Source: Protonemura montana
Taxonomy: Eukaryota; Arthropoda; Insecta; Plecoptera; Nemouridae
DNA length: 64,000 nucleotides
NCBI GenBank assembly: GCA_947568835.1
Contig: OX387603.1
Coordinates: forward strand, 2,177,701 to 2,241,700
Direction of reading: 5' to 3'
The position numbers were made by a program, and so were the translations under genes. Positions 5,691 through 49,530 of the stretch are shown piece after piece (within the stretch, counting starts at the first letter, position 1; each line of letters opens with the position of its first letter). The notes under the pieces are model-generated. The model saw only the letters and a program-made list of their open reading frames with translations. It was not told where the DNA came from and did no database searches.

Positions 5691-5707
5691 GAAGCTGGGG
5701 TTGAAAT

Positions 5708-7467
5708 TGAATGGTTGATTATTGGTGTTTAGCGACGCACTGTTTTGACATCTGGTCATGCGGCACTGGTCTAATGGCGTCGGTGAATGAGTGGATAATG
5801 ATGAACCTAACCTAGCCTAGAAGGGAGGAGGGGAAATCCGGTGCCAGCACGTAGCCTACTCCTGTCGAAGACCAAGAGGACCACCGGCTTAACGTCCCTT
5901 CCGAAGGACGGTACAACGCGAACAACAGGATTCCTTCACAAATCCATGCTGTCGCGAGGTTGATAAGCAAGGCGAGTGAAGTTGCTGTACTAACTTTCAT
6001 CCCTCCAACCTCTCTCCCGAACAGAACTGGTCATGTGTATGATGGTCACCCATCCAATACCTGACCCAGCGCAGTGTTGCTTAACTTTCATTCCTCCAAC
6101 CTCTCTCCCGAACAGAACTGGTCATGTGTATGATGGTCACCCATCCAATGCCTGACCCAGCGCAGTGTTGCTTAACTTTCATCCCTCCAACCTCTCTCCC
6201 GAACAGAACTAGTCATGTGTATGATGGTCACCCATCCAATACCTGACCCAGCGCAGTGTTGCTTAACTTTCATCCCTCCAACCTCTCTCCCGAACAGAAC
6301 TAGTCATGTGTATGATGGTCACCCATCCAATATCTCATCCAGCGCAGTGTTGCTTAACTTTCATCCCTCCAACCTCTCTCCCGAACAGAACTGGTCATGT
6401 GTATGATGGTCACCCATCCAATACCTGACCCAGCGCAGTGTTGCTTAACTTTCATCCCTCCAACCTCTCTCCCGAACAGAACTGGTCATGTGTATGATGG
6501 CCACCCATCCAATACCTGACCCAGCGCAGTGTTGCTTAACTTGCATCCCTCCAACCTCTCTCCCGAACAGAACTGGTCATGTGTATGATGATCACCCATC
6601 CAATACCTGACTCAGCGCAGTGTTGCTTAACTTTCATCCCTCCAACCTCTCTCCCGAACAGAACTGGTCATGTGTATGATGGCCACCCATCCAATACCTG
6701 ACCCAGCACAGTGTTGCTTAACTTGCATCCCTCCAACCTCTCTCCCGAACAGAACTGGTCATGTGTATGATGGCCACCCATCCAATACCTGACCCAGCGC
6801 AGTGTTGCTTAACTTGCATCCCTCCAACCTCTCTCCCGAACAGAACTGGTCATGTGTATGATGGCCACCCATCCAATACCTGACCCAGCGTAGTGTTGCT
6901 TAACTTTCATCCCTCCAACCTCTCTCCCGAACAGAACTGGTCATGTGTATGATGGCCACCCATCCAATACCTGACCCAGCGCAGTGTTGCTTAACTTTCA
7001 TCCCTCCAACCTCTCTCCCGAACAGAACTGGTCATGTGTATGATGGCCACCCATCCAATACCTGACTCAGCGCAGTGTTGCTTAACTTTCATCCCTCCAA
7101 CCTCTCTCCCGAACAGAACTGGTCATGTGTATGATGGCCACCCATCCAATACCTGACTCAGCGCAGTGTTGCTTAACTTTCATCCCTCCAACCTCTCTCC
7201 CGAACAGAACTGGTCATGTGTATGATGGCCACCCATCCAATACCTGACCCAGCGTAGTGTTGCTTAACTTTCATCCCTCCAACCTCTCTCCCAAACAGAA
7301 CTGATCATGTGTATGATGGTCACCCATCCAATACCTGACCCAGCGTAGTGTTGCTTAACTTTCATCCCTCCAACCTCTCTCCCAAACAGAACTGGTCATG
7401 TGTATGATGATCACCCATCCAATACCTGACCCAGCGCAGTGTTGCTGAACACGACAAACCGTTTGGT
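5708..7467 (-). mobile_element. 5S-rRNA-derived SINE with 16-fold multiplied head
   Basis: Read on the minus strand, the element starts with a 5S-like head (ACGGTTTGTCGTGTT), runs through about 16 tandem 91-bp units (7446 down to about 5991), then a unique body of about 280 bp with the motif CCTTCGGAAGGGACGTTAA, and a tail with GCGTCGCTAAACACCAATAA. It is bracketed by a 12-bp direct repeat, TGGGGTTGAAAT, at 5696-5707 and 7468-7479, which marks a retrotransposition target-site duplication. Each unit carries the segment AAGTTAAGCAACACTGCG...TTGGATGGGTGACC, which aligns with the box A, intermediate element and box C of 5S rRNA genes (type 1 Pol III promoter). Confidence 0.85.
5991..7446 (-). repeat. 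91-bp 5S-derived tandem array, about 16 units
   Basis: The period of 91 bp was measured directly (for example the CTTTCAT starts at 5994 and 6085). Units differ by a few substitutions, mostly at CpG and at GGTCACC/GGCCACC/GATCACC. About half of each unit is 5S-derived; the rest (CATACACATGACCAG...GAGGGATGAAA) is not 5S. The array is the head of the SINE at 5708-7467. Confidence 0.95.
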
Positions 7468-7479
7468 TGGGGTTGAAAT

Positions 7480-8390
7480 GTAGGTAAGTGGATGCAAGTT
7501 ACGATCCAGTTGGAGGTAGACGTGGTTAGAGTTGAGGAAAGAAGAATTGTTATTATAGTTGTTGCAGTTGTTTGACAATAGTTAGACTTACTTAATATTC
7601 AAAACCCTGTTCAGATAAAGTTTCTTTGAAAACTTGTGCTTGAAATAGTAAGAAGTGTACGTGAGAATAATGATGACACATAAAATGTTAGATGTGAGCA
7701 ATTTCTTTATTTCACTAAGTGACGGTTTTTTAGCGGTACGTTCGTTATTATTAACGGGCTGTTAACAAATAAAATATGAATGGCTCATGTTAACTAATTG
7801 ACGGAATGTTAAGTTCTTAACGGACCACTGAATAACTAACCTTTAGACTAACAATAAAATCAACTACTCGTTTTGTTTACTGTTATTTTTGTTACTTAAA
7901 TATGTTCCCTGCGTTGAAGCCGATGTTTTAATTTATTTACCGTCCCAATAAAGCACTTTTTTAGGTGAAATGCTTCTCAAGAACTAGAAAGAAAGACACA
8001 GCTTCCAGTTCCTCGGTTCTCATTCCGAATTAATGATGCTAAGTGTCTCACACGGAGCCGCCCCTTTGTGCCGATAAAGCTAAGACGTTGTATCTACATT
8101 TTAAATTTCCAGAAATCTCCATGAAAGGAACTCCGCTAACTCTCTGTTCTGGGTTAATTACAACGAGAACAAAATAAATACACTCGAGTGTCTATCGAGT
8201 ACAGTTGTCACGAGATTAACATAATGCCTGTAAGTACCATTCATACTGATAAAGCAAAGAGAAGCGTCTCATCCGAAAATCGCACCGTATTTTCTTAGCG
8301 TTTTATGTGTCAAAGTAATTTAAATACTTCCGTATTCTTTGAATCTACGGTTTTATTCTATGCTAGTTTATGATGTCTGAGTTTACATCT
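7480..8390. other. intergenic, no gene recognised
   Basis: AT-rich sequence. A segment at about 7805-7832 (GTTAAGTTCTTAACGGACCA) resembles one at about 44787-44817 and may be a small dispersed repeat. Nothing else seen. Confidence 0.4.
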
Positions 8391-8957
8391 GCGTATTGCT
8401 ATGGGATTGTTGCTACACTTCAAGACACCGGCCACGTGAAGGCGTCTAACAATTCCATCCCCGCTTGTACATAGCCACGTGAAACAAGCAAGCTGTTGAA
8501 ACGCCTCTCTCCAGCAGCCAGCGTATTGCTATGGGATTGTTGCTACACTTCAAGACACCGGCCACGTGAAGGCGTCTAACAATTCCATCCCCGCTTGTAC
8601 ATAGCCACGTGAAACAAGCAAGCTGTTGAAACGCCTCTCTCCAGGAGCCAGCGTATTGCTATGGGATTGTTGCTACACTTCAAGACACCGGCCACGTGAA
8701 GGCATCTAACAATTCCATCCCCGCTTGTACATAGCCACGTGAAACAAGCAAGCTGTTGAAACGCCTCTCTCCAGCAGCCAGCGTATTGCTATGGGATTGT
8801 TGCTACACTTCAAGACACCGGCCACGTGAAGGCGTCTAACAATTCCATCCCCGCTTGTACATAGCCACGTGAAACAAGCAAGCTGTTGAAACGCCTCTCT
8901 CCAGGAGCCAGCGTATTGCTATGGGATTGTTGCTACACTTCAAGACACCGGCCACCA
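8391..8957 (+). repeat. 130-bp minisatellite, 4.3 units
   Basis: Units begin at 8391, 8521, 8651, 8781 and 8911 (each with GCGTATTGCTATGGG); the fifth is cut off at about 8957. Units alternate between CCAGCAGCCA and CCAGGAGCCA at their ends, so the array is two copies of a 260-bp dimer. Each full unit carries two CACGTG palindromes (first pair at 8433 and 8476). The segment CACGTGAAACAAGCAAGCTG through AAACGCCTCTC is related to the start of the 82-bp array at 32204. Confidence 0.95.
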
Positions 8958-11432: not shown

Positions 11433-11573
11433 ATGTCACGGAATGTCCAGCACAGAGGCGACGGCGAGTGTCCGCTCCTTTGCGTGGAGCGAAACAAGCA
11501 CCCTGTCACGGAATGTCCAGCACAGAGGCGACGGCGATTGTCCGCTCCTTTGCGTGGAGTGAAACAAGCACCC
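11433..11573 (+). repeat. 70-bp minisatellite family, two units
   Basis: Two units of the 70-bp repeat (TGTCACGGAATGTCCAGCAC... and the hairpin CGCTCCTTTGCGTGGAGCG) lie here. The same family forms large arrays at 30553 (plus) and 46922 (minus) and a short one at 49344. This is the shortest locus and may be close to an ancestral state. Confidence 0.9.
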
Positions 11574-14528: not shown

Positions 14529-14684
14529 CAGTTGCAGATTTATCAAGTCTAGCTTCCTTTTCGTAACTAACCTGGTTATAATAACATAGATAGTAGTTTA
14601 TCTAAACCTGCAATTCTCAAAAGATTGTACAAAGCAAATCGAGGACTAAATTGCGAATCATTTGGTCGCTTTAAGCCCACAGAC

Positions 14685-15086
14685 ATCCATCCAATGCCTG
14701 ACTCAGTGCAGTGTTGCTTAACTTTCATCTCTCCAACCTCTCTCCCGAACAGAACTGGTCATGTGTATGATGGTCACCCATCCAATACCTGACCCAGCGC
14801 AGTGTTGCTTAACTGTCATCCCTCCAACCTCTCTCCCGAACAGAACTGGTCATGTGTATGATGGTCACCCATCCAATGCCTGACCCAGCGCAGTGTTGCT
14901 TAACTTTCATCCCTCCAACCTCTCTCCCGAACAGAACTGGTCATGTGTATGATGGTCACCCATCCAATACCTGACACAGCGCAGTGTTGCTTAACTTTCA
15001 TCCCTCCAACCTCTCTCCCGAACAGAACTGGTCATGTGTATGATGGTCACCCATCCAATACCTGACCCAGCGCAGTGTTGCTTAAC
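14685..15086 (-). repeat. 91-bp 5S-derived array without a SINE body
   Basis: Four complete 91-bp units and a partial one (GTGTTGC at 14711, 14802, 14893, 14984 and 15075). It is the same unit as in the 5S SINE, but no body or tail is attached at either end. Confidence 0.9.
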
Positions 15087-15725: not shown

Positions 15726-17617
15726 GTCACAGGATATGAGGCATTTTGATTCGCTGAAACTGTAGCAGAACTTTGTAGCGAAATCTTTGCTTAGGGTTAA
15801 CTGCCCAACATCTCTCTTTAACAAAGCGAACCCATTTTTTAATATAAGAAGTCATGAAACTGAATTAAGCCATCGAATACTCGACATTATGAAAGTCTAC
15901 CTCCCCTGTCATGAATTTAATTACATTGTTAGGATTTCAGACGCGTCTTAGCAATTATGACACGAGCATTACAGGCTAGAAATATAAGAGAATACGACTG
16001 TGAGGACCGACGCCACTGGGCGAAATAATTCGGTTGGATTCCAGTACGCTGTGTTCCTATATGTTGAGATCCAGAAATCCTTGAATTATTATTTGTACAT
16101 TGTTAATTGAATCTGTCCAATTCGTATTTAGTTTGTGACTCGGGTTCCGTTGCGCTGGGAACAAAGGGCACAAATTTGTTTCATTCTGCGCTCTCCAGCA
16201 CAGTTCCAATTGTTGTTCAGTTTTGTTATTTGAAAATTATATCTACAGGGCTGTGAAAACTGACTTTCATAGAAGCGGACTTTAACTGCAAATGATATGA
16301 GTTATATATCTGCATGGATGGCTGGTATATTTTCTAGTAAATCGATGCATGAAATGCTTTGTCTGAAAGCTGAATTTATTGCAAATATAGTTGGCAATGT
16401 TACTAAAATATTAGAATAATTGTGAATAATTTTCAACTGAGTTATTTATGAATGCTCCAAGTTTGTTAAATGAGCTTTTTTTCCAAATGTCAAGTTTAAT
16501 TGATGGAGATTGTTTATTTTGATCAACGAAAGATCAAATGAGTGAATAGAAATGCACTCAATGACGTTGGCTCAATGATCTTTTATTCCTCTTATGGGGG
16601 ATTTCACCAACAACGAGCTAAACTAAGTTTAAAAAGTAAAATCTGTTTTTACCGAGAGTTAAGAAGCAGAAATTTACAAAAATACCAACAAAAAATACTA
16701 AAATTTCTCTTGAAAAGTGGTATAAATTCTAGAAGGCACTGCCAGGTAACAACAAACAAAACTAATTTTTTAGCTGTCAATATTTTCTCTAGATCGATGG
16801 AGTTTTAAATTCTAAACAAGTAAACAGGAAATAGATCCGGACAAAACCGTTACATATTTCTGTATCTCAACAAATTATCTTTCAATTTAAACTCTGAGCA
16901 AGAAGTTATTTTATATTTTCGATTATTAAATCGTGTTGTCTAAGTTAACTTGCTTGACGCTTAGCATCACTTTCGACCGGAAGTTCCTGTCAGTTCCACG
17001 GCGAGCCCCGCGTGCTTTTAGTTCAAAACACGGACACAGATAAAAAAAAAAAGCGCGGCAAGCGTCGAAGTTCAAAGAAACTTTTCCACCCAACGTTGGG
17101 TGCTGATCGTCATCTTGTGCGATCGAAATAGTTCCATCCCCGCAAGCATTTTTACTGCTCTTTTTCTAATCGAGATGGCAATGTAAGGTGCATTTGTTTT
17201 GAAAAGTCACACGATTATGACGCAATCTAAACAAAAGAAGCCGCCTTTTTCACAACAAGTTGGAATGGAACATAAAAATTGCCATGATCTTTCATCTGCA
17301 GCAGTAATTCAACAATCCAGTAACTTGCTGAAGACATCAAGACGCCTCTGGTAGATTTTTCCTGTGCTTCTCAATAATTTTTCAACCTACTATTAAGGCT
17401 TAAAAGCTGTGATGACGGTGCTTTTTGCTCACTAATAAACTCCATTCACTCTCTCTCTTCATAACTCGTTACTAAATCCTTTCCAACAAGATGCGGCTTC
17501 AACTTCTGATAAAATTAATGGGCAATGTAATTCACCATTAAATGGATTAATCTGCAGACAATCTGCAGTCCAGCAGTTTCATTCACCTTCTGCGCAATAT
17601 TTCCTTGGTACATACAC
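15726..17617. other. intergenic, no gene recognised
   Basis: AT-rich sequence with only chance-sized open frames (for example 88 codons at 16542-16808). A short palindrome (CCAACGTTGG) lies near 17090. Confidence 0.4.
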
Positions 17618-18152
17618 AGAACGGTTTGCCGTGTTGGAAAAACAGGTTCTCTTGAGATCACCGAAGTTAAGCAACACTGCGCTGGGTCAGGTATTGGATG
17701 GGTGACCATCATACACATGACCAGTTCTGTTCGGGAGAGAGGTTGGAGGGATGAAAATTAAGTAACACTGCGCTGGGTCAGGTATTGGATGGGCGACCAT
17801 CATACACATGACCAGTTCTGTTCGGGAGAGAGGTTGGAGGGATGAAAATTAAGTAACACTGCGCTGGGTCAGGTATTGGATGGGTGACCATCATACACAT
17901 GACAAGTTCTGTTCGGGAGAGAGGTTGGAGGGATGAAAATTAAGTAACACTGCGCTGGGTCAGGTATTGGATGGGTGACCATCATACACATGACAAGTTC
18001 TGTTCGGGAGAGAGGTTGGAGGGATGAAAGTTAAGCAACACTGCGCTGGGTCAGGTATTGGATGGGCGACCATCATACACATGACCAGTTCTGTTCGGGA
18101 GAGAGGTTGGAGGGATGAAAGTTAAGTAACACTGCGCTGGGTCAGGTATTGG
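17618..18152 (+). repeat. 5S-derived head plus 91-bp array
   Basis: It begins with the 5S-like leader GAACGGTTTGCCGTGTTGGA and GAGATCACCGAAGTTAAGC, which match the 5' part of metazoan 5S rRNA. Units follow with starts at 17666, 17757, 17848, 17939, 18030 and 18121. The last unit breaks off inside its box C region (AGGTATTGGA) and passes straight into the 33-bp array. No SINE body. Confidence 0.9.
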
Positions 18153-21100
18153 AACCCACTGACACCAAATGTACACTGAACATCCCACACTAGCACCAAA
18201 TGTACACTGAACATCCCACACACTGGCACCAAATGTACACTGAACATCCCACACTGGCACCAAATGTACACTGAACATCCCACACACTGGCACCAAATGA
18301 ACACTGAACATCCCACACACTGGCACCAAATGTACATCAAACATCCCACACACTGGAACTAAATGTACACTGAACATCCCAAACACTGGCACCAAATGTA
18401 CATCAAACATCCCACACACTGGAACTAAATGAACACTGAACATCCCACACACTGGCACCAAATGTACACTGAACATCCCACACACTGGCACCAAATGTAC
18501 ACTGAACATCCCACACTAGCACCAAATGTACATCAAACATCCCACACACTGGCACCAAATGTACACTGAACATCCCACACACTGCACCAAATGTACATCA
18601 AACATCCCACACCCTGTCACCAAATGTACATCAAACATCCCACACACTAGCACCAAATGTACACTGAACATCCCACACTCTGGCACCAAATGTACACTGA
18701 ACATCCCAACCACTGGCACCAAATGTACATCAAACATCCCAAAGACTGGCACCAAATGTACACTGAACATCCCACACACTGGCACCAAATGAACACTGAA
18801 CATCCCACACTAGCACCAAATGTACATCAAACATCCCACAAACTGGCACCAAATGTACACTGAACATCCCACACACTGGCACCAAATGTACACTGAACAT
18901 CCCACACACTGTCAACAAATGTACACTAAACATCCCACACACTGTCACCAAATGTACATCAAACATCCCACACACTGCACCAAATGTACACTGAACATCC
19001 CACACACTGCACCAAATGTACACTGAAAATCCCACACTCTGGCACCAAATGTACACTGAACATCCCAACCACTGGCACCAAATGTACATCAAACATCCCA
19101 CACACTGGCACCAAATGAACACTGAACATCCCACACACTGCACCAAATGTACACTGAAAATCCCACACTCTGGCACCAAATGTACACTGAACAACCCAAC
19201 CACTGGCACCAAATGTACATCAAACATCCCACACCCTGGCACCAAATGTACACTGAACATCCCAACCACTGGCACCAAATGTACATCAAACATCCCACAC
19301 ACTGGCACCAAATGTACACTGAACATCCCACACACTGGCACCAAATGTACACTGAACATCCCACACACTGTCACCAAATGTACACTGAACATCCCACACA
19401 CTGGCACCAAATGTACATCAAACATCCCACACACTGTCACCAAATGTACACTGAACATCCCACACACTGGCACCAAATGTACACTGAACATCCCACACAC
19501 TGGCACTAAATGTACACTGAACATCCCACACACTGACACCAAATGTACATCAAACATCCCACACACTGGAACTTAATGTACATCAAACATCCCACACACT
19601 GTCACCAAATGTACACTAAACATCCCACACACTAGCACCGAATGTACACTGAACATCGCACCCACTAGCACCAAATGTACACTGAACATCCCACACCCTG
19701 GCACCAAATGTACACTGAACATCCCACACACTGGAACTTAATGTACATCAAACATCCCACACACTGTCACCAAATGTACACTAAACATCCCACACACTAG
19801 CACCGAATGTACACTGAACATCGCACCCACTAGCACCAAATGTACACTGAACATCCCACACACTAGCACTAAATGTACACTGAACATCCCACACACTGGC
19901 ACCAAATGTACACTGAACATCCCACACACTAGCACCAAATGTACACTGAACATCCCACACACTGTCACCAAATGTACACTGAACATCCCACACCCTGGCA
20001 CCAAATGTACACTGAACATCCCACACACTAGCACCAAATGTACACTGAACATCCCACACACTAGCACCAAATGTACACTGAACATCCCACACACTGTCAC
20101 CAAATGTACACTTAACATCCCACACCCTGGCACCAAATGTACACTGAACATCCCACACACTGTCACCAAATGTACACTGAACATCCCACACAGTGGAACC
20201 AAATGTACACTGAACATCCCAACCACTGGCACCAAATGTACACTGAACATCCCACACACTGGCACCAAATGTACACTGAACATCCCACACACTAGCACCA
20301 AATGTACACTGAACATCCCACACACTGGCACCAAATGTACACTGAACATCCCAACCACTGGCACCTAATGTACACTGAACATCCCAACCACTGGCACCAA
20401 ATGTACACTGAACATCCCACACACTGGCACCAAATGTACACTGAACATCCCACACACTAGCACCAAATGTACACTGAACATCCCACACACTGGCACCAAA
20501 TGTACACTGAACATCCCACACACTGGCACCAAATGTACACTGAACATCCAACACCCTGGCACCAAATGTACACTGAACATCCCACACACTGGCACCAAAT
20601 GTACACTGAACATCCCACACACTGGCACCAAATGTACACTGAACATCCCACACACTGTCACCAAATGTAAACTAAACATCCCACACCCTGGCACCAAATG
20701 TACACTGAACATCCCAACCACTGGCACCTAATGTACACTGAACATCCCAACCACTGGCACCAAATGTACACTGAACATCCCACACACTAGCACCAAATGT
20801 ACACTGAACATCCCAACCACTGGCACCAAATGTACACTGAACATCCCAACCACTGTCACCAAATGTACACTAAACATCCCACACCCTGGCACCAAATGTA
20901 CACTGAACATCCCACACACTGTCACCAAATGTACACTAAACATCCCACACACTGTCACCAAATGTACACCAAACATCCCACACCCTGGCACCAAATGTAC
21001 ACTGAACATCCCACACACTGGCACCAAATGTACACTAAACATCCCACACACTGTCACCAAATGTACACTAAACATCCCACACCCTGGCACCAAATGTACA

Positions 21101-21224
21101 CTGAACATCCCACACACTGGCACCAAATGTACACTGAACATCCCACACAATGACACCAAATGTACACTAAACATCCCACACACTGGCACCAAATGTACAG
21201 TGAATTTTCCAACGACTGGCACCA
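18153..21224. repeat. 33-bp minisatellite, about 93 units
   Basis: The unit is built on CTGGCACCAAATGTACACTG plus AACATCCCACACA. Because 33 is a multiple of three and the unit lacks stops, both strands show long open frames of 11-residue repeats; indel units of 32 bp break these repeatedly. The left half (to about 19600) mixes two unit types (ACATCAAAC and ACACTGAAC); the right half is almost only ACACTGAAC. Larger repeats are visible: GGAACTTAATG at 19568 and 19733 (165 bp, five units), and GCACCTAATG at 20361 and 20724 (363 bp, eleven units). No splice sites or unique flanks suggest coding use. Confidence 0.95.
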
Positions 21225-21709
21225 TATTTACTTAATGAAATGTTGTTTTTTAAAAAGCGGAAGTGGAAAATAAAGTGCAACTTTGCAAGAACAAACTTTG
21301 AAGTCAAAGTGGAGTCCCGTGATTCTGTTCCAAGTGCGAGCTTAGCGTGGAATTATCCTGCACTCGAAGGTGTTAATTACGGAATTAGAAATGCATTACT
21401 TTCCTCGCGTTACAGGTAAATGCATTCGGCATTAGCGATTCTGAGTGAAGCTCGAGACCAGGTAAAGTTGGGTGTCATGGTAGACAACGCTGCCTGGTGT
21501 AGCTTTCACGTACTTAAATCACGGTTATCTTGGTAATCCCAGCACGCCGGCTCAGGGATGAAAAATTGCGAAAAAATCGTGTGAAATCGGGTGGTCACGA
21601 CCATTTGCCGTTCTTTGGCATTAAGTTAGATTATGTATTCTAAGCAATCCACCAGTAGTGAGAGCATTTTGATCCCCTAATAATGCTAATTGTTGATGGA
21701 TTGATTTTT
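21225..21709. other. intergenic, no gene recognised
   Basis: Unique sequence between the 33-bp array and the next 5S-derived block. Nothing identifiable. Confidence 0.4.
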
Positions 21710-23610: not shown

Positions 23611-23621
23611 GTGGCGCTCTC

Positions 23622-24139
23622 TGTTATTATTATTATTATTATTTGTGGTGTTTAGCGACGCACTGTTTTGATATCTGGCCATGCGGTACTGATCTCATGG
23701 CGTCGGTGAATGAGTGGATGATGATGAACCTAACCTAGCCTAGAAGGGAGGAGCGGAAACCCGGTACCGGCACGTAGCCTACTACTGTCGAAGACCAAGG
23801 GGACCACCGGCTTAACGTCCCTTCCGAAGGACGGTACAACGCGAACAACAGGATTCCTTCACAAATCCATGATGTCGAGAGGTTGATAAGCAAGGCGAGT
23901 GAAGTTGCTGTAATAACTTTCATCCCTCCAACCTCTCTCCCGAACAGAACTGGTCATGTGTATGATGGTCACCCATCCAATACCTGACCCAGCGCAGTGT
24001 TGCTTAACTTTCATCCCTCCAACCTCTCTCCCGAACAGAACTGGTCATGTGTATGATGGTCACCCATCCAATACCTGACCCAGCGCAGTGTTGCTTAACT
24101 TTCAGCCCTCCAACCTCTCTCCCGAACAGAACTGGTCAT
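23622..24139 (-). mobile_element. 5'-truncated 5S-derived SINE with target-site duplication
   Basis: From right to left: part of one 91-bp unit, two full units, the complete SINE body and the tail ending in an (ATA)n run. Both sides carry the 11-bp direct repeat GTGGCGCTCTC (23611-23621 and 24140-24150). The 5' end lies inside a tandem unit, as expected for incomplete reverse transcription of a multi-head transcript. Confidence 0.88.
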
Positions 24140-24150
24140 GTGGCGCTCTC

Positions 24151-28469: not shown

Positions 28470-29035
28470 GATATATTTTTATAATTATTAACACTAAAAT
28501 ACCCCGCGCATTGCAAGCGTTTGCAATTTGAATAAGATTTCATCAAAATACAGCAACGAATCCAACGTCAAATTGGAGTTACTCGAGATTGACAGGTTGT
28601 GACGTGATATAGCGTCACTAGAATCAGAGTGACTGTGAGTATTCACAGCCTCTTGGTTTTACTCCGTGGAGATCCGTCATTTTCATCAAATACACTAAAA
28701 TCGTCTCAAAAAGCCGGTGTCCAAGTAGCTCAATTGGTTAGAGCAACACCCGCGACAGGTGGAGATCGGGGTCCAAGTAGCTCAATTGGTTAGAACAACA
28801 CCCGCGACAGGTGGAGATCAGGGTCCAAGTAGCTCAATTGGTTAGAGCAACACCCGCGACAGGTGGAGATCAGGGTCCAAGTAGCTCAATTGGTTAGAGC
28901 AACACCCGCGATAGGTGGAGATTGGGGCTCGAGTCCCCTTTTAGGCATCAATTTTTGAGACGTTTACAGAGCTCATGATAATTAAATACCCGCGCATTGC
29001 AAGCGTTTGCAATTTAATTAAGATTTCATCTAAAT
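28470..29035 (+). repeat. tRNA-like element with fourfold multiplied promoter half
   Basis: It starts and ends with the family's CGCGCATTGCAAGCGTTTGC segment (28503 and 28990). The body at about 28550-28690 is followed by the inverted-repeat end CACTAAAATCGTCTCAAAAA, then four tRNA-like units starting at 28719, 28771, 28823 and 28875, spaced 52 bp. Only the last unit continues into the B-box/T-arm (CTCGAGTCCCC). Each unit has an A-box match (TAGCTCAATTGG). The outer direct repeats suggest the family is, or was, tandemly arranged. Confidence 0.85.
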
Positions 29036-30552: not shown

Positions 30553-31796
30553 GACATTCCGCTCCTTTGCGTGGAGCGAAACAAGCGCCCTGTCACGGAA
30601 TGTCCAGCACAGAGGCGACGGCGAGTGTCCGCTCCTTTGCGTGGAGCGAAACAAGCGCCCTGTCACGGAATGTCCAGCACAGAGACGACGGCGAGTGTCC
30701 GCTCCTTTGCGTGGAGCGAAACAAGCGCCCTGTCACGGAATGTCCAGCACAGAGGCGACGGCGAGTGTCCGCTCCTTTGCGTGGAGCGAAACAAGCACCC
30801 TGTCACGGAATATCCAGCACAGAGGCGACGGCGAGTGTCCGCTTCTTTGCGTGGAGCGAAACAAGCACCCTGTCACGGAATGTCCAGCACAGAGGCGACG
30901 GCGAGTGTCCGCTCCTTTGCGTAGAGCGAAACAAGCGCCCTGTCACGGAATGTCCAGCACAGAGGCGACGGCGAGTGTCCGCTCCTTTGCGTAGAGCGAA
31001 ACAAGCGCCCTGTCACGGAATGTCCAGCACAGAGGCGACGGCGAGTGTCCGCTCCTTTGCGTGGAGCGAAACAAGCGCCCTGTCACGGAATGTCCAGCAC
31101 AGAGGCGACGGCGAGTGTCCGCTCCTTTGCGTAGAGCGAAACAAGCGCCCTGTCACGGAATGTCCAGCACAGAGGCGACGGCGAGTGTCCGCTCCTTTGC
31201 GTGGAGCGAAACAAGCGCCCTGTCACGGAATGTCCAGCACAGAGGCGACGGCGAGTGTCCGCTCCTTTGCGTGGAGCGAAACAAGCGCCCTGTCACGGAA
31301 TGTCCCGCACAGAGGCGACGGCGAGTGTCCGCTCCTTTGCGTGGAGCGAAACAAGCACCCTGTCACGGAATATCCAGCACAGAGGCGACGGCGAGTGTCC
31401 GCTTCTTTGCGTGGAGCGAAACAAGCACCCTGTCACGGAATGTCCAGCACAGAGGCGACGGCGAGTGTCCGCTCCTTTGCGTAGAGCGAAACAAGCGCCC
31501 TGTCACGGAATGTCCAGCACAGAGGCGACGGCGAGTGTCCGCTCCTTTGCGTGGAGCGAAACAAGCGCCCTGTCACGGAATGTCCAGCACGAGACGACGG
31601 CGAGTGTCCGCTCCTTTGCGTGGAGCGAAACAAGCGCCCTGTCACGGAATGTCCAGCACAGAGGCGACGGCGAGTGTCCGCTCCTTTGCGTGGAGCGAAA
31701 CAAGCGCCCTGTCACGGAATGTCCAGCACAGAGGTGACGGCGAGTGTCCGCTCCTTTGCGTGGAGCGAAACAAGCGCCCTGTCACGGAATGTCCAT
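30553..31796 (+). repeat. 70-bp minisatellite, about 18 units
   Basis: The period of 70 bp was measured directly (TGTCACGGAA at 30591, 30661 and so on). Unit variants include GTAGAGCG, TATCCAGCAC and GCTTCTTTGC. The pair TATCC plus GCTTC recurs at 30811 and 31371, 560 bp or eight units apart, indicating a block duplication. Each unit has the hairpin CGCTCC-TTTGCGT-GGAGCG. The unit has no stop codon in any frame of this strand and 70 is not divisible by three, so all three frames stay open for hundreds of codons; this is a repeat artefact, not a gene. Confidence 0.95.
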
Positions 31797-32203
31797 CTTG
31801 GCAGTTAAGCAGCGAAACTAGCGGCGACTGCCGTACTTTATTAGCACCGCGGCTTAATGTTTGTCTCACACGACATCGCTCCCTACAGATTGGTCCCACG
31901 CACGCGCACACGCACACGCACACGCACATGCTCATGCTCACGCATGCTCATCTATTTTCCAGCCAGAGCGACTTGGACACTTTTTTACTCCCGGAAATCA
32001 GCACTGAATTATTTCACGGAACATGAAAATTTGATGATAATACAAGTAGAATACAAAGTAAATAAAAAATTTGGCTTTTTTTAGATAAATTTTCTTCTAA
32101 AACTCGGTGAATTCTTCAACAGCGAATTACTTCAAGTGGGCTTTTAACAATTCACTGGATGCTGCCGTTCTCGTGTATCACCACGTGTAACGAGCAAGCT
32201 GTC
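31797..32203. other. intergenic with short (CACACG)n tract
   Basis: A CACACG/CATGCT-rich microsatellite lies at about 31899-31945. Otherwise nothing identified. Confidence 0.5.
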
Positions 32204-32470
32204 GAAACGCCTCTCCGTGCTACGGGGCTGTTCCTTTACAAACAAACATTATTCTACTTCCACCTTGAACCCACGCGAAGCTGGAGAAACGCCTCTCCGT
32301 GCTACGGGGCTGTTCCTTTACAAACAAACATTATTCTACTTCCACCTTGAACCCACGCGAAGCTGGAGAAACGCCTCTCCGTGCTACGGGGCTGTTCCTT
32401 TACAAACAAACATTATTCTACTTCCACCTTGAACCCACGCGAAGCTGGAGAAACGCCTCTCGATATCAAG
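32204..32470 (+). repeat. 82-bp minisatellite, three units
   Basis: GAAACGCCTCTCC starts at 32204, 32286, 32368 and 32450, a period of 82 bp. Upstream, CACGTGTAACGAGCAAGCTG is related to the 130-bp unit at 8391 (CACGTGAAACAAGCAAGCTG), so the two arrays share ancestry. Confidence 0.92.
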
Positions 32471-35041: not shown

Positions 35042-35494
35042 TGGGACGAGAAGTCTAAATGTTGAAGTTTGTTGCATCATGTTAGGAGCGGACACTCGCC
35101 GTTGCCCGGCTTAACAGTTCGTTAGCGCCATCTTGGATTCACCGCTAACAAAAACTTGTATTTCTCTTGGTCGTGTTGCTAAAACTGGGATATTGTGGAG
35201 AATAATTTGACCAGAAAATCAAGACTTGACAATTACTGGTATTATTTGTTCAACGATGTTCTTCTAATTATCTATGTCAACAAGAACGCCGTGACTGAGA
35301 TCTAATGGCGTAGACTTTCAGCAAACAAGAGACGACCTACACTTGAATTCACTTCGAAGCACAGAACAAGTGCAGCTCGTAACAGCGGCTATTTTTATTT
35401 CCTTCTCTCGACTTACTTTCTCAACAAATTGCATAAAAACACAGATAAAACTCAATCAAAAAACTGAATCGGTTGAAAATTCTGACTGCCACTT
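35042..35494. other. intergenic; fragment of 70-bp repeat
   Basis: A short match to the 70-bp family (AGGAGCGGACACTCGCCGTT) lies at about 35085-35105. Nothing else identified. Confidence 0.45.
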
Positions 35495-36545
35495 CGGTTG
35501 CTCTGCGGGTTGCATATAGGATTATTATTATTCTTATTATTATTATTTGTGGTGTTTAACGATGCACTGCTTAGACAACTGGCCATGCGGCACTGGTCTA
35601 ATGGCGTCGGTGAATGAGTGGATGATGATGAACATAACCTAGCCTAGAAGGGAGGAGGGGAAACCTAGTGCCGGCACGTAGCCTACTCCTGTCGAAGACC
35701 AAGGGGACCACCGGCTTAACGTCCCTTCCGAAGGACGGTACAACGCGAACAACAGGATTCCTCCACAAATCCATGCTGTCGCGAGGTTGATAAGCAAGGC
35801 GAGTGAAGTTGCTGTACTAACTTTCATCCCTCCAACCTCTCTCCTGAACAGAACTGGTCATGTGTATGATGGTCACCCATCCAATACCTGACCCAGCGCA
35901 GTGTTGCTTAACTTTCATCCCTCTAACCTCTCTCCCGAACAGAACTGGTCATGTTTATGATGGTCACCCATCCAATACCTGACCCAGCGCAGTGTTGCTG
36001 TACTAACTTTCATCCCTCCAACCTCTCTCCCGAACAGAACTGGCCATGTGTATGATGGTCACCCATCCAATACCTGACCCAGCGCAGTGTTGCTTAACTT
36101 TTATCCCTCCAACCTCTCTTCCGAACAGAACTGGTCATATGTATGATGGTCACCCATCCAATACCTGACTCAACGCAGTGTTGCTTAACTTCGATGATCT
36201 TACGAGAACCAGTTTTACCAACACGACAAACCGTTCGGTCTTTTCATATGGGAGTTGAACGTGGAGGAGCCGTGTTTGCTCTGCGGGTTGCGTCTAGGAG
36301 TTGAACGTGGAGGAGCCGTGTTTGCTCTGCGGGTTGCGTCTAGGAGTTGAACGTGGAGGAGCCGAGTTTGCTCTGCGGGTTGCGTTTAGGAGTTTAACGT
36401 GGAGGAGCCGAGTTTGCTCTGCGGGTTGCGTCTAGGAGTTTAACGTGGAGGAGCCGAGTTTGCTCTGCGGGTTGCGTCTAGGAGTTGAACGTGGAGGAGC
36501 CGAGTTTGCTCTGCGGGTTGCGTCTAGGAGTTGAACGTGGAAGTA
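35495..36545 (+). repeat. 46-bp minisatellite, six units plus a split first unit
   Basis: Six units with GGAGTTGAACGTGGAGGAGC and TTTGCTCTGCGGGTTGCG run from 36251 to 36545. The left half of another unit (GTTGCTCTGCGGGTTGC) sits at about 35498-35514, and the SINE at 35522-36244 separates it from its right half. Confidence 0.88.
35522..36244 (-). mobile_element. 5S-derived SINE inserted into a minisatellite unit
   Basis: The tail (ATTATTATTATTTGTGGTG) is at the left, the body at 35600-35820, about four to five 91-bp units follow, and the 5S-like leader (ACACGACAAACCGTTCGG) ends at 36244. One unit is preceded by a second body-junction sequence (TGCTGTACTAACTTTCATCC) near 35996, so the head is chimeric. 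Flanking direct repeats are CATATAGGA (35513-35521) and CATATGGGA (36245-36253). Confidence 0.85.
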
Positions 36546-42065: not shown

Positions 42066-42612
42066 ATTGATTGATTTGTGGTGTTTAACATAGCACTGTT
42101 TTGACATCTGGTCATGCGGCACTGGTCTACTGGCGTCGGTGAATGTGAAGATGATGATGAACTTAACCTAGTCTAGAAGGGAGGAGGGGAAACCCGGTGC
42201 CGGCACGTAGCCTACTCCTGTCGAAGACCAAGGGGACCACCGGCTTAACGTCCCTTCCGAAGGACGGTACAACGCGAACAACAGGATTCCTCCACAAATC
42301 CATGCTGTTGAGAGGTTGACAAACAAGGCGAGTGAAGTTGCTGTACTAACTTTCATCCCTCCAACCTCTCTCCCAAACAGAACTGGTCATGTGTATAATG
42401 GGCACCCTTCAACTTCACTCGCCTTGCTTATCAACCTCACGACAGCATGGATTTGTGGAGGAATCCTGTTGTTCGCGCTAACCGTCCTTAGTCCTTCGTA
42501 CCAGTACCAGGTTTACCCTACTCCCTTCTAGATTGGATTAGATTTATCATCATCCTCATCATCATCCTCTCATTAGACACCATTAGACGAGTGCCACGTT
42601 GTGAAAACTAAT
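42066..42612. mobile_element. two 5S-derived SINE bodies head to head
   Basis: The minus-strand copy (42066 to about 42407) has tail and body, and only part of one 91-bp unit. It is followed directly by a diverged plus-strand copy of the body and part of the tail (about 42408-42612: TTCAACTTCACTCGCCTTGC through CACCATTAGACGAGTGCCA). The arrangement is an imperfect inverted repeat. Confidence 0.8.
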
Positions 42613-46921: not shown

Positions 46922-48837
46922 GTTGTTTCGCTCCACGCAAAGGAGCGGACACTCGCCGTCGCCTCTGTGCTGGACATTCCGTGACAGGGCGCTTGTTTCG
47001 CTCCACGCAAAGGAGCGGACACTCGGTGTCGCCTCTGTGCTGGACATTCCGTGACAGGGCGCTTGTTTCGCTCCACGCAAAGGAGCGGACACTCGCCGTC
47101 GCCTCTGTGCTGGACATTCCGTGACAGGGCGCTTGTTTCGCTCCACGCAAAGGAGCGGACACTCGCCGTCGCCTCTGTGCTGGACATTCCGTGACAGGGC
47201 GCTTGTTTCGCTCCACGCAAAGGAGCGGACACTCGCCGTCGCCTCTGTGCTGGACATTCCGTGACAGGGCGCTTGTTTCGCTCCACGCAAAGGAGCGGAC
47301 ACTCGCCGTCACCTCTGTACTGGACATTCCGTGACAGGGCGCTTGTTTCGCTCCACGCAAAGGAGCGGACACTCGCCGTCGCCTCTGTGCTGGACATTCC
47401 GTGACAGGGCGCTTGTTTCGCTCCACGCAAAGGAGCGGACACTCGCCGTCGCCTCTGTGCTGGACATTCCGTGACAGGGCGCTTGTTTCGCTCCACGCAA
47501 AGGAGCGGACACTCGCCGTCGCCTCTGTGCTGGACATTCCGTGACAGGGTGCTTGTTTCGCTCCACGCGAAGGAGCGGACACTCGCCGTCGCCTCTGTGC
47601 TGGACATTCCGTGACAGGGCGCTTGTTTCGCTCCACGCAAAGGAGCGGACACTCGCCGTCGCCTCTGTGCTGGACATTCCGTGACAGGGCGCTTGTTTCG
47701 CTCCACGCAAAGGAGCGGACACTCGCCGTCGCCTCTGTGCTGGACATTCCGTGACAGGGCGCTTGTTTCGCTCCACGCAAAGGAGCGGACACTCGCCGTC
47801 GCCTCTGTGCTGGACATTCCGTGACAGGGCGCTTGTTTCGCTCCACGCAAATGAGCGGACACTCGCCGTCGCTTCTGTGCTGGACATTCCGTGACAGGGC
47901 GCTTGTTTCACTCCACGCCAAGGAGTGGACACTCACCGTCGCCTCTGTGCTGGACATTCCGTGACAGGGTGCTTGTTTCGCTCCACGCGAAGGAGCGGAC
48001 ACTCGCCGTCGCTTCTGTGCTGGACATTCCGTGACAGGGCGCTTGTTTCACTCCACGCGAAGGAGTGGACACTCACCGTCGCCTCTGTGCTGGACATTCC
48101 GTGACAGGGTGCTTGTTTCGCTCCACGCGAAGGAGCGGACACTCGCCGTCGCTTCTGTGCTGGACATTCCGTGACAGGGCGCTTGTTTCGCTCCACGCAA
48201 AGGAGCGGACACTCGCCGTCGCCTCTGTGCTGGACATTCCATGACAGGGCGCTTGTTTCGCTCCACGCAAAGGAGCGGACACTCGCCGTCGCCTCTGTGC
48301 CGGACATTCCGTGACAGGACGCTTGTTTCGCTCCACGCAAAGGAGCGGACACTCGCCGTCGCCTCTGTGCTGGACATTCCGTGACAGGGCGCTTGTTTCG
48401 CTCCACGCAAAGGAGCGGACACTCGCCGTCGCCTCTGTGCTGGACATTCCGTGACAGGGCGCTTGTTTCGCTCCACGCAAAGGAGCGGACACTCGCCGTC
48501 GCCTCTGTGCTGGACATTCCGTGACAGGGTGCTTGTTTCGCTCCACGCAAAGGAGCGGACACTCGCCGTCGCCTCTGTGCTGGACATTCCGTGACAGGGC
48601 GCTTGTTTCGCTCCACGCAAAGGAGCGGACACTCGCCGTCGCCTCTGTGCTGGACATTCCGTGACAGGGTGCTTGTTTCGCTCCACGCAAAGGAGCGGAC
48701 ACTCGCCGTCGCCTCTGTGCTGGACATTCCGTGACAGGGTGCTTGTTTCGCTCCACGCAAAGGAGCGGACACTCGCCGTCGCCTCTGTGCTGGACATTCC
48801 GTGACAGGGTGCTTGTTTCGCTCCACGCAAAGGAGCT
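46922..48837 (-). repeat. 70-bp minisatellite, about 27 units, minus orientation
   Basis: The largest array of the 70-bp family, in opposite orientation to 30553-31796. A distinctive two-unit block (GTTTCACTCC...GGAGTGG, then CACGCGAAGG) occurs at 47905 and 48045, 140 bp apart. Open frames of up to 486 codons result from the stop-free repeat and continue into unrelated flanking DNA; I do not treat them as genes. Confidence 0.95.
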
Positions 48838-49343: not shown

Positions 49344-49530
49344 CACCCTGTCACGGAATGTCCAGCACAGAGGCGACGGCGAGTGTCCGCTCCTTTGCGT
49401 GGAGCGAAACATGCACTCTGTCACGGAATGTCCAGCACAGAGGCGACGGCGAGTGTCCGCTCCTTTGCGTGGAGCGAAACAAGCGCCCTGTCACGGAATG
49501 TCCAGCACAGAGGCTACAGCGAGTTCCGCT
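49344..49530 (+). repeat. 70-bp minisatellite family, about 2.5 units
   Basis: Starts TGTCACGGAATGTCCAGCAC at about 49349 and ends degraded (GAGGCTACAGCGAGTTCCGC). Plus orientation. Confidence 0.9.

Follow-up and report, generated by a model that had tools for sequence, protein, structure and literature searches.

A SINE with a 5S-derived promoter head repeated in tandem near contig ends

Many copies of a SINE derived from 5S rRNA carry, near contig ends, the promoter part of their head in tandem arrays, and these arrays are very probably the product, in the main, of minisatellite growth after insertion near contig ends, with some later retrotransposition of copies that were already multi-headed. 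Growth after insertion is favoured as the main process because the arrays are biased towards contig ends, because their boundaries lie on pre-existing repeats, and because arrays of a tRNA-derived SINE are also found near the ends. The window, by which we mean the whole stretch of 64,000 nucleotides that was analyzed, is C2:2177701-2241700, and the genome searched comprises 258 Mb in 34 contigs. Two of the reading frames in the window are taken by us to be those of an alpha-tubulin and an SLC35-like gene, and by these genes we assume the source to be an animal.

The stretch from 5696 to 7479 in the window is one retroposed 5S-derived SINE that lies on the minus strand in 5S sense. Read on that strand from 7479 to 5696, it opens with the duplication ATTTCAACCCCA and 20 nt of 5S-like 5' end; the 16 units, each of 91 bp, come next, then the body (268 bp) and a tail of 15 nt, and the duplication again closes it:

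7468..7479, minus strand: 5' target-site duplication (ATTTCAACCCCA in 5S sense), identical over 12 bp to 5696-5707 and directly adjoining the element
7448..7467, minus strand: 5' end of the 5S-like head, then an internal deletion of ~34 nt relative to sister copies
5991..7446, minus strand: 16 tandem 91-bp units, each a 5S internal control region and a linker
5723..5990, minus strand: SINE body, 268 of 269 reference positions, of the young subfamily (67T, 74C, 3-bp deletion)
5708..5722, minus strand: SINE 3' tail ataatcaaccattca, the sequence between the body end and the target-site duplication
5696..5707, minus strand: 3' target-site duplication, an exact 12-bp repeat

The first-pass annotation of this DNA had described 16 promoter-bearing units of 91 bp, and they were recovered both by Tandem Repeats Finder (91 bp in 16.0 copies at 5991-7450, with 97% matches) and by blastn (16 full units at 5991-7446). 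The 12-bp direct repeat that it placed around the element, TGGGGTTGAAAT, occurs without mismatch at 5696-5707 and at 7468-7479, in both places directly adjoining the element, and the target-duplication score of this copy (12) was reached by no mismatched flank pair in the null set. This test took 51 of the 67 annotated elements, those left aside being without a near-complete body or enough flank. A reading of the array at 5991-7446 as satellite only is ruled out by the remnant of a 5S head, the tail and the flush target duplication.

Derivation from 5S rRNA in the manner of SINE3 elements, also proposed in that annotation, is borne out by the heads and by alignments that exceed those of shuffled sequences. 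Against RF00001, whose Rfam gathering score is 38, bit scores of 47, 46.9, 44 and 39.4 were obtained with the 5'-most head of each of four sister copies in the window. As alignment query we used an invertebrate-type 5S gene; it gave a score of 106 with head and unit together (maximum of 65 in 500 shuffles) and of 58 with an internal unit alone (maximum of 40 in shuffles). The comparison with the Rfam 5S model that the annotation had suggested thus succeeds for the sister heads (39.4-47 bits) but fails for the copy at 5696-7479 itself, which has no Rfam 5S match even at E<=10 because its first head is without ~34 nt of the 5S 5' part.

Each 91-bp unit corresponds to the promoter part of 5S with a linker, and not to a whole 5S. 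The full head in sister copies is 54 nt long and runs straight into the first unit, head and unit together being 5S-like. In the internal units AAAGTTA, at the end of the preceding unit, occupies the place that GAAGTTA has in the head, so that box A is completed across the junction and the distances between it, the intermediate element and box C remain those of 5S. The positions of these boxes within the units are presumed ones, compared with the alignment. No TTTT run occurs in the reference head, unit and body.

The closest matches to 5S genes (88-89% identity) among the best 40 scored form regular clusters at the very start of C11 and C15, and are also present on C23. Among these best 40, C11:70-105743 holds three per ~9.5 kb on both strands, and at C15:8746-88879 the spacing is 40 kb. 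It seems, then, that the genuine 5S genes are also located at chromosome ends.

Further copies and arrays of this SINE, and two arrays from a tRNA-derived SINE, are spread through the window; the names A box and B box at 28715-28947 are our own reading:

14684..15082, minus strand: 4.4 units in an array that lacks both head and body
17616..18153, plus strand: head and ~5.3 units, no body, running into a 33-bp array; Rfam 5S match, 46.9 bits
21716..23120, minus strand: array of ~14.3 units, flanked on either side by other pieces of 5S head
23645..24142, minus strand: sister copy cut inside a unit, 2.5 units and body, with the flush target duplication GAGAGCGCCAC (24140-24150 and 23611-23621)
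28715..28947, plus strand: head of a tRNA-derived SINE, its 52-bp A-box part in tandem (4.1 copies), then the B box; Rfam tRNA match, 35.5 bits
29409..30178, minus strand: sister copy of head, 5 units and body; the head is an Rfam 5S match, 47 bits
34341..35030, plus strand: sister copy of head, 4 units and body; Rfam 5S match, 39.4 bits
35549..36239, minus strand: sister copy of head, 4 units and body; Rfam 5S match, 44 bits
40861..41432, minus strand: second array of the 52-bp tRNA-derived unit, 11 copies
42078..42410, minus strand: sister copy cut inside a unit (0.7 unit) with body, unexpanded

Other repeats adjoin or accompany these copies. The array of 33-bp units at 18157-21231 (~93 copies) directly adjoins the body-less array of 5S units at 17616-18153, and within 42078-42595 pieces of the same SINE body, in inverted orientation, come immediately after the truncated copy. 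Within 35480-36541, a 46-bp array lies beside the copy at 35549-36239, which was probably inserted into it, since the unit GCAACCCGCAGAGCAA also occurs just past the other end of the SINE. A 70-bp unit appears in four separate arrays (11434-11573, 30558-31795, 46923-48836 and 49344-49530) as a dispersed minisatellite whose flanks differ by eye. The motif AAACGCCTCTC is common to a 130-bp array (8391-8955) and an 82-bp array (32196-32461), which are perhaps two expansions of one element.

Multi-headed forms recur beyond this locus, as the first-pass annotation had supposed: two units followed by a body are found at 112 places genome-wide at one mismatch or fewer. At the same tolerance the array/body junction occurs at 8136 places, and its reversed control at none. 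Twenty places fetched as the best matches to a 16-head query, and hence biased to long arrays, contain 14 to 37 units each.

The number of heads depends strongly on where a copy lies. In the interior of contig C1 (5-22 Mb), 13 of 15 places, hand-picked so as to be spread over the array/body junction list, have a head, one unit and a body, while one is truncated and one (L051) has five; a single head is the norm in this sample and not the state of the copy at 5696-7479. Near the end of the same contig (0.13-0.61 Mb), six of seven copies are multi-headed, with head counts of 2, 6, 7.5, 8, 2, 2.4 and 1, among the first eight places of the junction list, L030 being uncounted as its chain is a 15-bp sub-array. 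The difference between end and interior is significant (Fisher p=0.0006). On nine contigs, 80 of 98 unit-unit-body places fall within 3 Mb of a contig end compared with 23 of 45 single-headed places (p=0.0003), a zone that makes up 26% of the length of these contigs; the places are 98 of 100 multi-headed ones listed out of 112, and 45 of 55 single-headed ones, at one mismatch or fewer. Contig ends are here presumed to be chromosome ends.

Other tandem repeats follow the same distribution. Minisatellites with a period of at least 15 cover 25% of the window, 17% of the C1 loci at 0.13-1.5 Mb, and 1.9% and 1.4% of two sets of interior C1 loci, where all C1 loci are centred on SINE copies and the window is not. 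The tandem A-box junction of the tRNA-derived SINE occurs at 204 places genome-wide at three mismatches or fewer, and at two or fewer all 49 of 49 places lie within 4 Mb of a contig end (37% of the length). Minisatellite expansion after insertion, one of the outcomes that the first-pass annotation had listed, is the best supported of them, given the single heads in the interior, the enrichment at the ends, the expansion of unrelated repeats, and the array boundaries on direct repeats described below.

The single-headed reference contains 15 direct repeats of at least 6 bp within 200 nt. Five types of tandem were seen, and four of them coincide with such pre-existing repeats:

91 bp: direct repeat AAGTTA
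95 bp: direct repeat AGCAAC, at one junction (35990-36007) of the copy at 35549-36239, different from its others
36 bp: direct repeat ACAGCA, an array of body sequence at L044
15 bp: direct repeat TGACCA, a piece of the unit in ~92 copies at L030
92-bp period, 3.7 copies: the whole 5S 5' head and 39 nt of the unit at L062:2681-3024, not on any 6-bp repeat of the element

Variants within the arrays are distributed in blocks. A block of 14 units is present twice at L015 (12 of 14 identical), 8 units are present twice at L025, and 3 units three times at L027. Units differ from each other at 3.31 positions within an array and 3.67 between arrays, with 31 of 39 arrays in the expected direction, so slight a difference that it speaks against a purely local origin. 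We infer that the block-wise and largely private variants are the marks of DNA slippage and unequal exchange, the route by which the arrays would have grown.

In the mechanism that we propose, the founder would have been a single-headed 5S-derived SINE (a head of 54 nt, a unit of 91 nt, a body of ~269 nt and a short A/T-rich tail) that inserted with target duplications of ~9-15 bp. The promoter part of the head happens to lie between two copies of the 6-bp repeat AAGTTA, one at nt 49 and one at nt 140 (a spacing of 91 bp), and another pair, AGCAAC, with a spacing of 95 bp, adjoins it. Towards the chromosome ends, within the outer few Mb, slippage or unequal repair between such repeats, acting at the level of DNA, could double the 91-bp promoter block, and unequal exchange could then enlarge the array to dozens of units by one or several units per step. 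The same zones would make minisatellites of other sequences: the A-box part of the tRNA-derived SINE is one example, and further segments of the 5S SINE, each at a single locus, are others. Secondarily, at least some multi-headed copies would have been transcribed and retrotransposed as such.

Different processes could contribute to the same pattern. Ectopic exchange or gene conversion among chromosome ends, which would spread existing arrays and allow a single-headed or truncated copy to be converted by a neighbour, is a possible alternative that we consider less than likely. The 91-bp register and near-identical units are common to arrays across chromosomes, an array without body or head exists (14684-15082), and of 84 amplified variants, 32 show this amplification in two or more arrays; against this, the other 52 are amplified in one array only.

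A rather unlikely explanation is that one subfamily gained several heads and was spread from a multi-headed master by retrotransposition, the extra heads preserving a promoter after 5' truncation or raising transcription, and that the enrichment at chromosome ends reflects where this young subfamily inserted or was retained. The bodies are mainly of two types, an older CA and a younger TC, and in the first set of 51 bodies, counting those with at least one whole unit, 30 of 35 TC copies were multi-headed compared with none of 10 CA copies. Young TC places at two mismatches or fewer are likewise multi-headed in 229 cases and single-headed in 13, and L051, the five-headed copy in the interior of C1, is of the TC type. 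In mouse L1, monomer duplication is described as helping to keep promoters through truncation-prone retrotransposition (PMC6454616, in the portion consulted).

Three multi-headed copies of the CA type were found later, outside the first set of bodies, and they show the effect of position within the older type. On C1, CA-type copies are multi-headed in 3 of 3 cases at 0.9-1.5 Mb and in 0 of 11 at 2.6-7.4 Mb (p=0.003), the sample being the first 14 places of its C1 list, one of which (5.00 Mb) is also among the 15 interior places. Position therefore acts within the older type, and inheritance of whole arrays is ruled out as the sole cause by this restriction to the neighbourhood of the contig end. 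The expansion in the same zones of an unrelated SINE, and at one locus of a segment of the 5S SINE outside its promoter, also counts against a master. Within the young TC type, single-headed and multi-headed copies do not differ in distance to the ends (medians 1.94 and 2.09 Mb; p=0.54), and because they are equally far from them, part of the pattern in head number may be inheritance of a multi-headed master.

A tree of the bodies, in which 1 of 48 inner branches is starred, is uninformative on one versus many origins. Its labels are significantly clustered (9 changes compared with a mean of 16 after shuffling, and 0 of 500 shuffles as low), with subfamily and place confounded. On C1 the older body type (76 exact places by body-type 24-mers) is absent from the last 1.9 Mb and the first 0.9 Mb, and the younger type is concentrated near the ends; the sequence farthest out on C1 looks younger.

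Selection for many promoters left no consistent sign in the arrays. Variants per site are 0.009 in box A, 0.019 in the linker, 0.024 in box C and 0.056 in the intermediate element, the last value being driven mainly by one site. Only box A is less variable than the linker, so that selection on the promoter boxes is unsupported, and the boxes are not consistently better conserved as a master would predict.

Retrotransposition of multi-headed copies themselves, which the first-pass annotation did not foresee, is suggested by copies that begin within an array. Multi-headed copies without a detected head start inside a unit in 11 of 15 cases, and 3 of these 11 have a flush target duplication, as a multi-headed master would leave:

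Copy at 23645-24142 of the window: 2.5 units, duplication of 15 bp with 1 mismatch
L032: 7.5 units, duplication of 14 bp, exact
L022: 9.4 units, duplication of 11 bp with 1 mismatch

By chance, 0.1 such duplications are expected in 15. The RNA of a single-headed copy, cut inside its unit, yields only a partial unit and the body; whole units behind the cut, together with a flush duplication, are hence a sign that the template had two or more heads and was presumably a multi-headed RNA, and they suggest that such RNAs are sometimes retrotransposed. The same picture could arise if a truncated copy underwent gene conversion by its neighbour. Across the classes, target duplications with a score of at least 8 mark 8 of 17 single-headed copies and 3 of 16 multi-headed ones in which a head is present; where no head was detected, the counts are 3 of 15 multi-headed and 0 of 3 single copies. 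Chance would give ~0.1 in each of the three larger classes. The remaining 13 of the 16 multi-headed copies with a head are without a significant target duplication, so their insertion is unproven.

Template switching by the reverse transcriptase of a partner LINE, at AAGTTA or AGCAAC during insertion, would produce tandem heads in one step and is quite improbable. It accounts for junctions that fall exactly on 6-bp repeats and for the mixture of 91-bp and 95-bp junctions in the copy at 35549-36239, but leaves unexplained the bias to contig ends, the block duplications of 3, 8 and 14 units, and the 15-bp array of ~92 copies. That the units were multiplied by the assembler is hardly credible: some blocks do repeat exactly or nearly so (L025, L015), but many units have variants of their own, the arrays are of very different sizes, and interior copies in this assembly have single heads.

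Several known systems are close to this one. Elements of the SINE3 class (HaSE3, SINE3-1_TC and zebrafish SINE3) have a 5S-like head with box A, an intermediate element and box C, and the present SINE resembles them in its 5S-like head, unrelated body and tail (PMC3272025, PMC10886601, in the parts consulted). Tandem heads are unmentioned in those parts, the word 'tandem' being absent from the text of PMC3272025 as available to us, whereas here there are up to 37 near contig ends.

Once inserted, Alu elements have had segments repeated in tandem on the spot between short direct repeats (PMC3389668, citing Jurka and Gentles), and a VNTR derived from mouse B1 is tabulated in PMC9659126. The arrays described here resemble both in that a SINE segment goes tandem between short direct repeats after insertion, as far as the consulted sections of these papers describe it. 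For human repeats derived from transposable elements, the same sections of PMC3389668 report no obvious genomic hotspots and a mean of 2.3-2.4 Alu units, whereas our arrays crowd contig ends. They also differ from the Alu and B1 minisatellites in that the repeated block is the Pol III promoter part. The Hy/Pol III satellite of Hydromantes and Satellite 1 of Xenopus are, in the passages available from PMC9659126, new tandem repeats from the tRNA-related Pol III promoter part of a SINE; here, by contrast, the head is 5S-derived and the arrays sit inside recognisable SINE copies.

In mouse L1 the promoter of the 5' UTR lies in variable tandem units, or monomers, and is often cut inside the first of them (PMC6454616, in part). 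Variable tandem promoter units, and copies cut inside the array with a target duplication, are common to both elements. The mouse element differs in having an L1 promoter that is backed by transcription data (CAGE) according to the same source, and for the present SINE the dependence on contig ends points to an origin at the level of DNA.

That SINEs can give rise to minisatellites between short direct repeats, and that tandem repeats can come from Pol III heads of SINEs, is already known. No SINE with a tandemly multiplied 5S head is described in the literature searched, which consisted of titles and the starts of abstracts with subscription journals mostly outside it. As far as these searches show, the 5S-derived head, the scale, the dependence on contig ends and the evidence of multi-headed mobility are new.

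It is doubtful, if conceivable, that this SINE lineage maintains its promoter as a self-renewing tandem array, in which recombination at chromosome ends would add Pol III heads, multi-headed RNAs would be retrotransposed, and spare heads would keep 5'-truncated copies transcribable. If true, a chance 6-bp repeat around a promoter would have protected a young subfamily against 5' truncation, by which such elements usually die, and this SINE would be a Pol III counterpart of the mouse L1 monomers, fed by subtelomeric instability.

These arrays provide a large natural experiment on the birth of minisatellites, in which one SINE with thousands of copies combines a known start sequence, countable short repeats and a contrast between interior and end. 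Whether a SINE can survive 5' truncation by having its promoter duplicated could also be tested on them. For the annotation of genomes, they are a warning that arrays of 5S or tRNA promoters near chromosome ends need not be clusters of 5S or tRNA genes.
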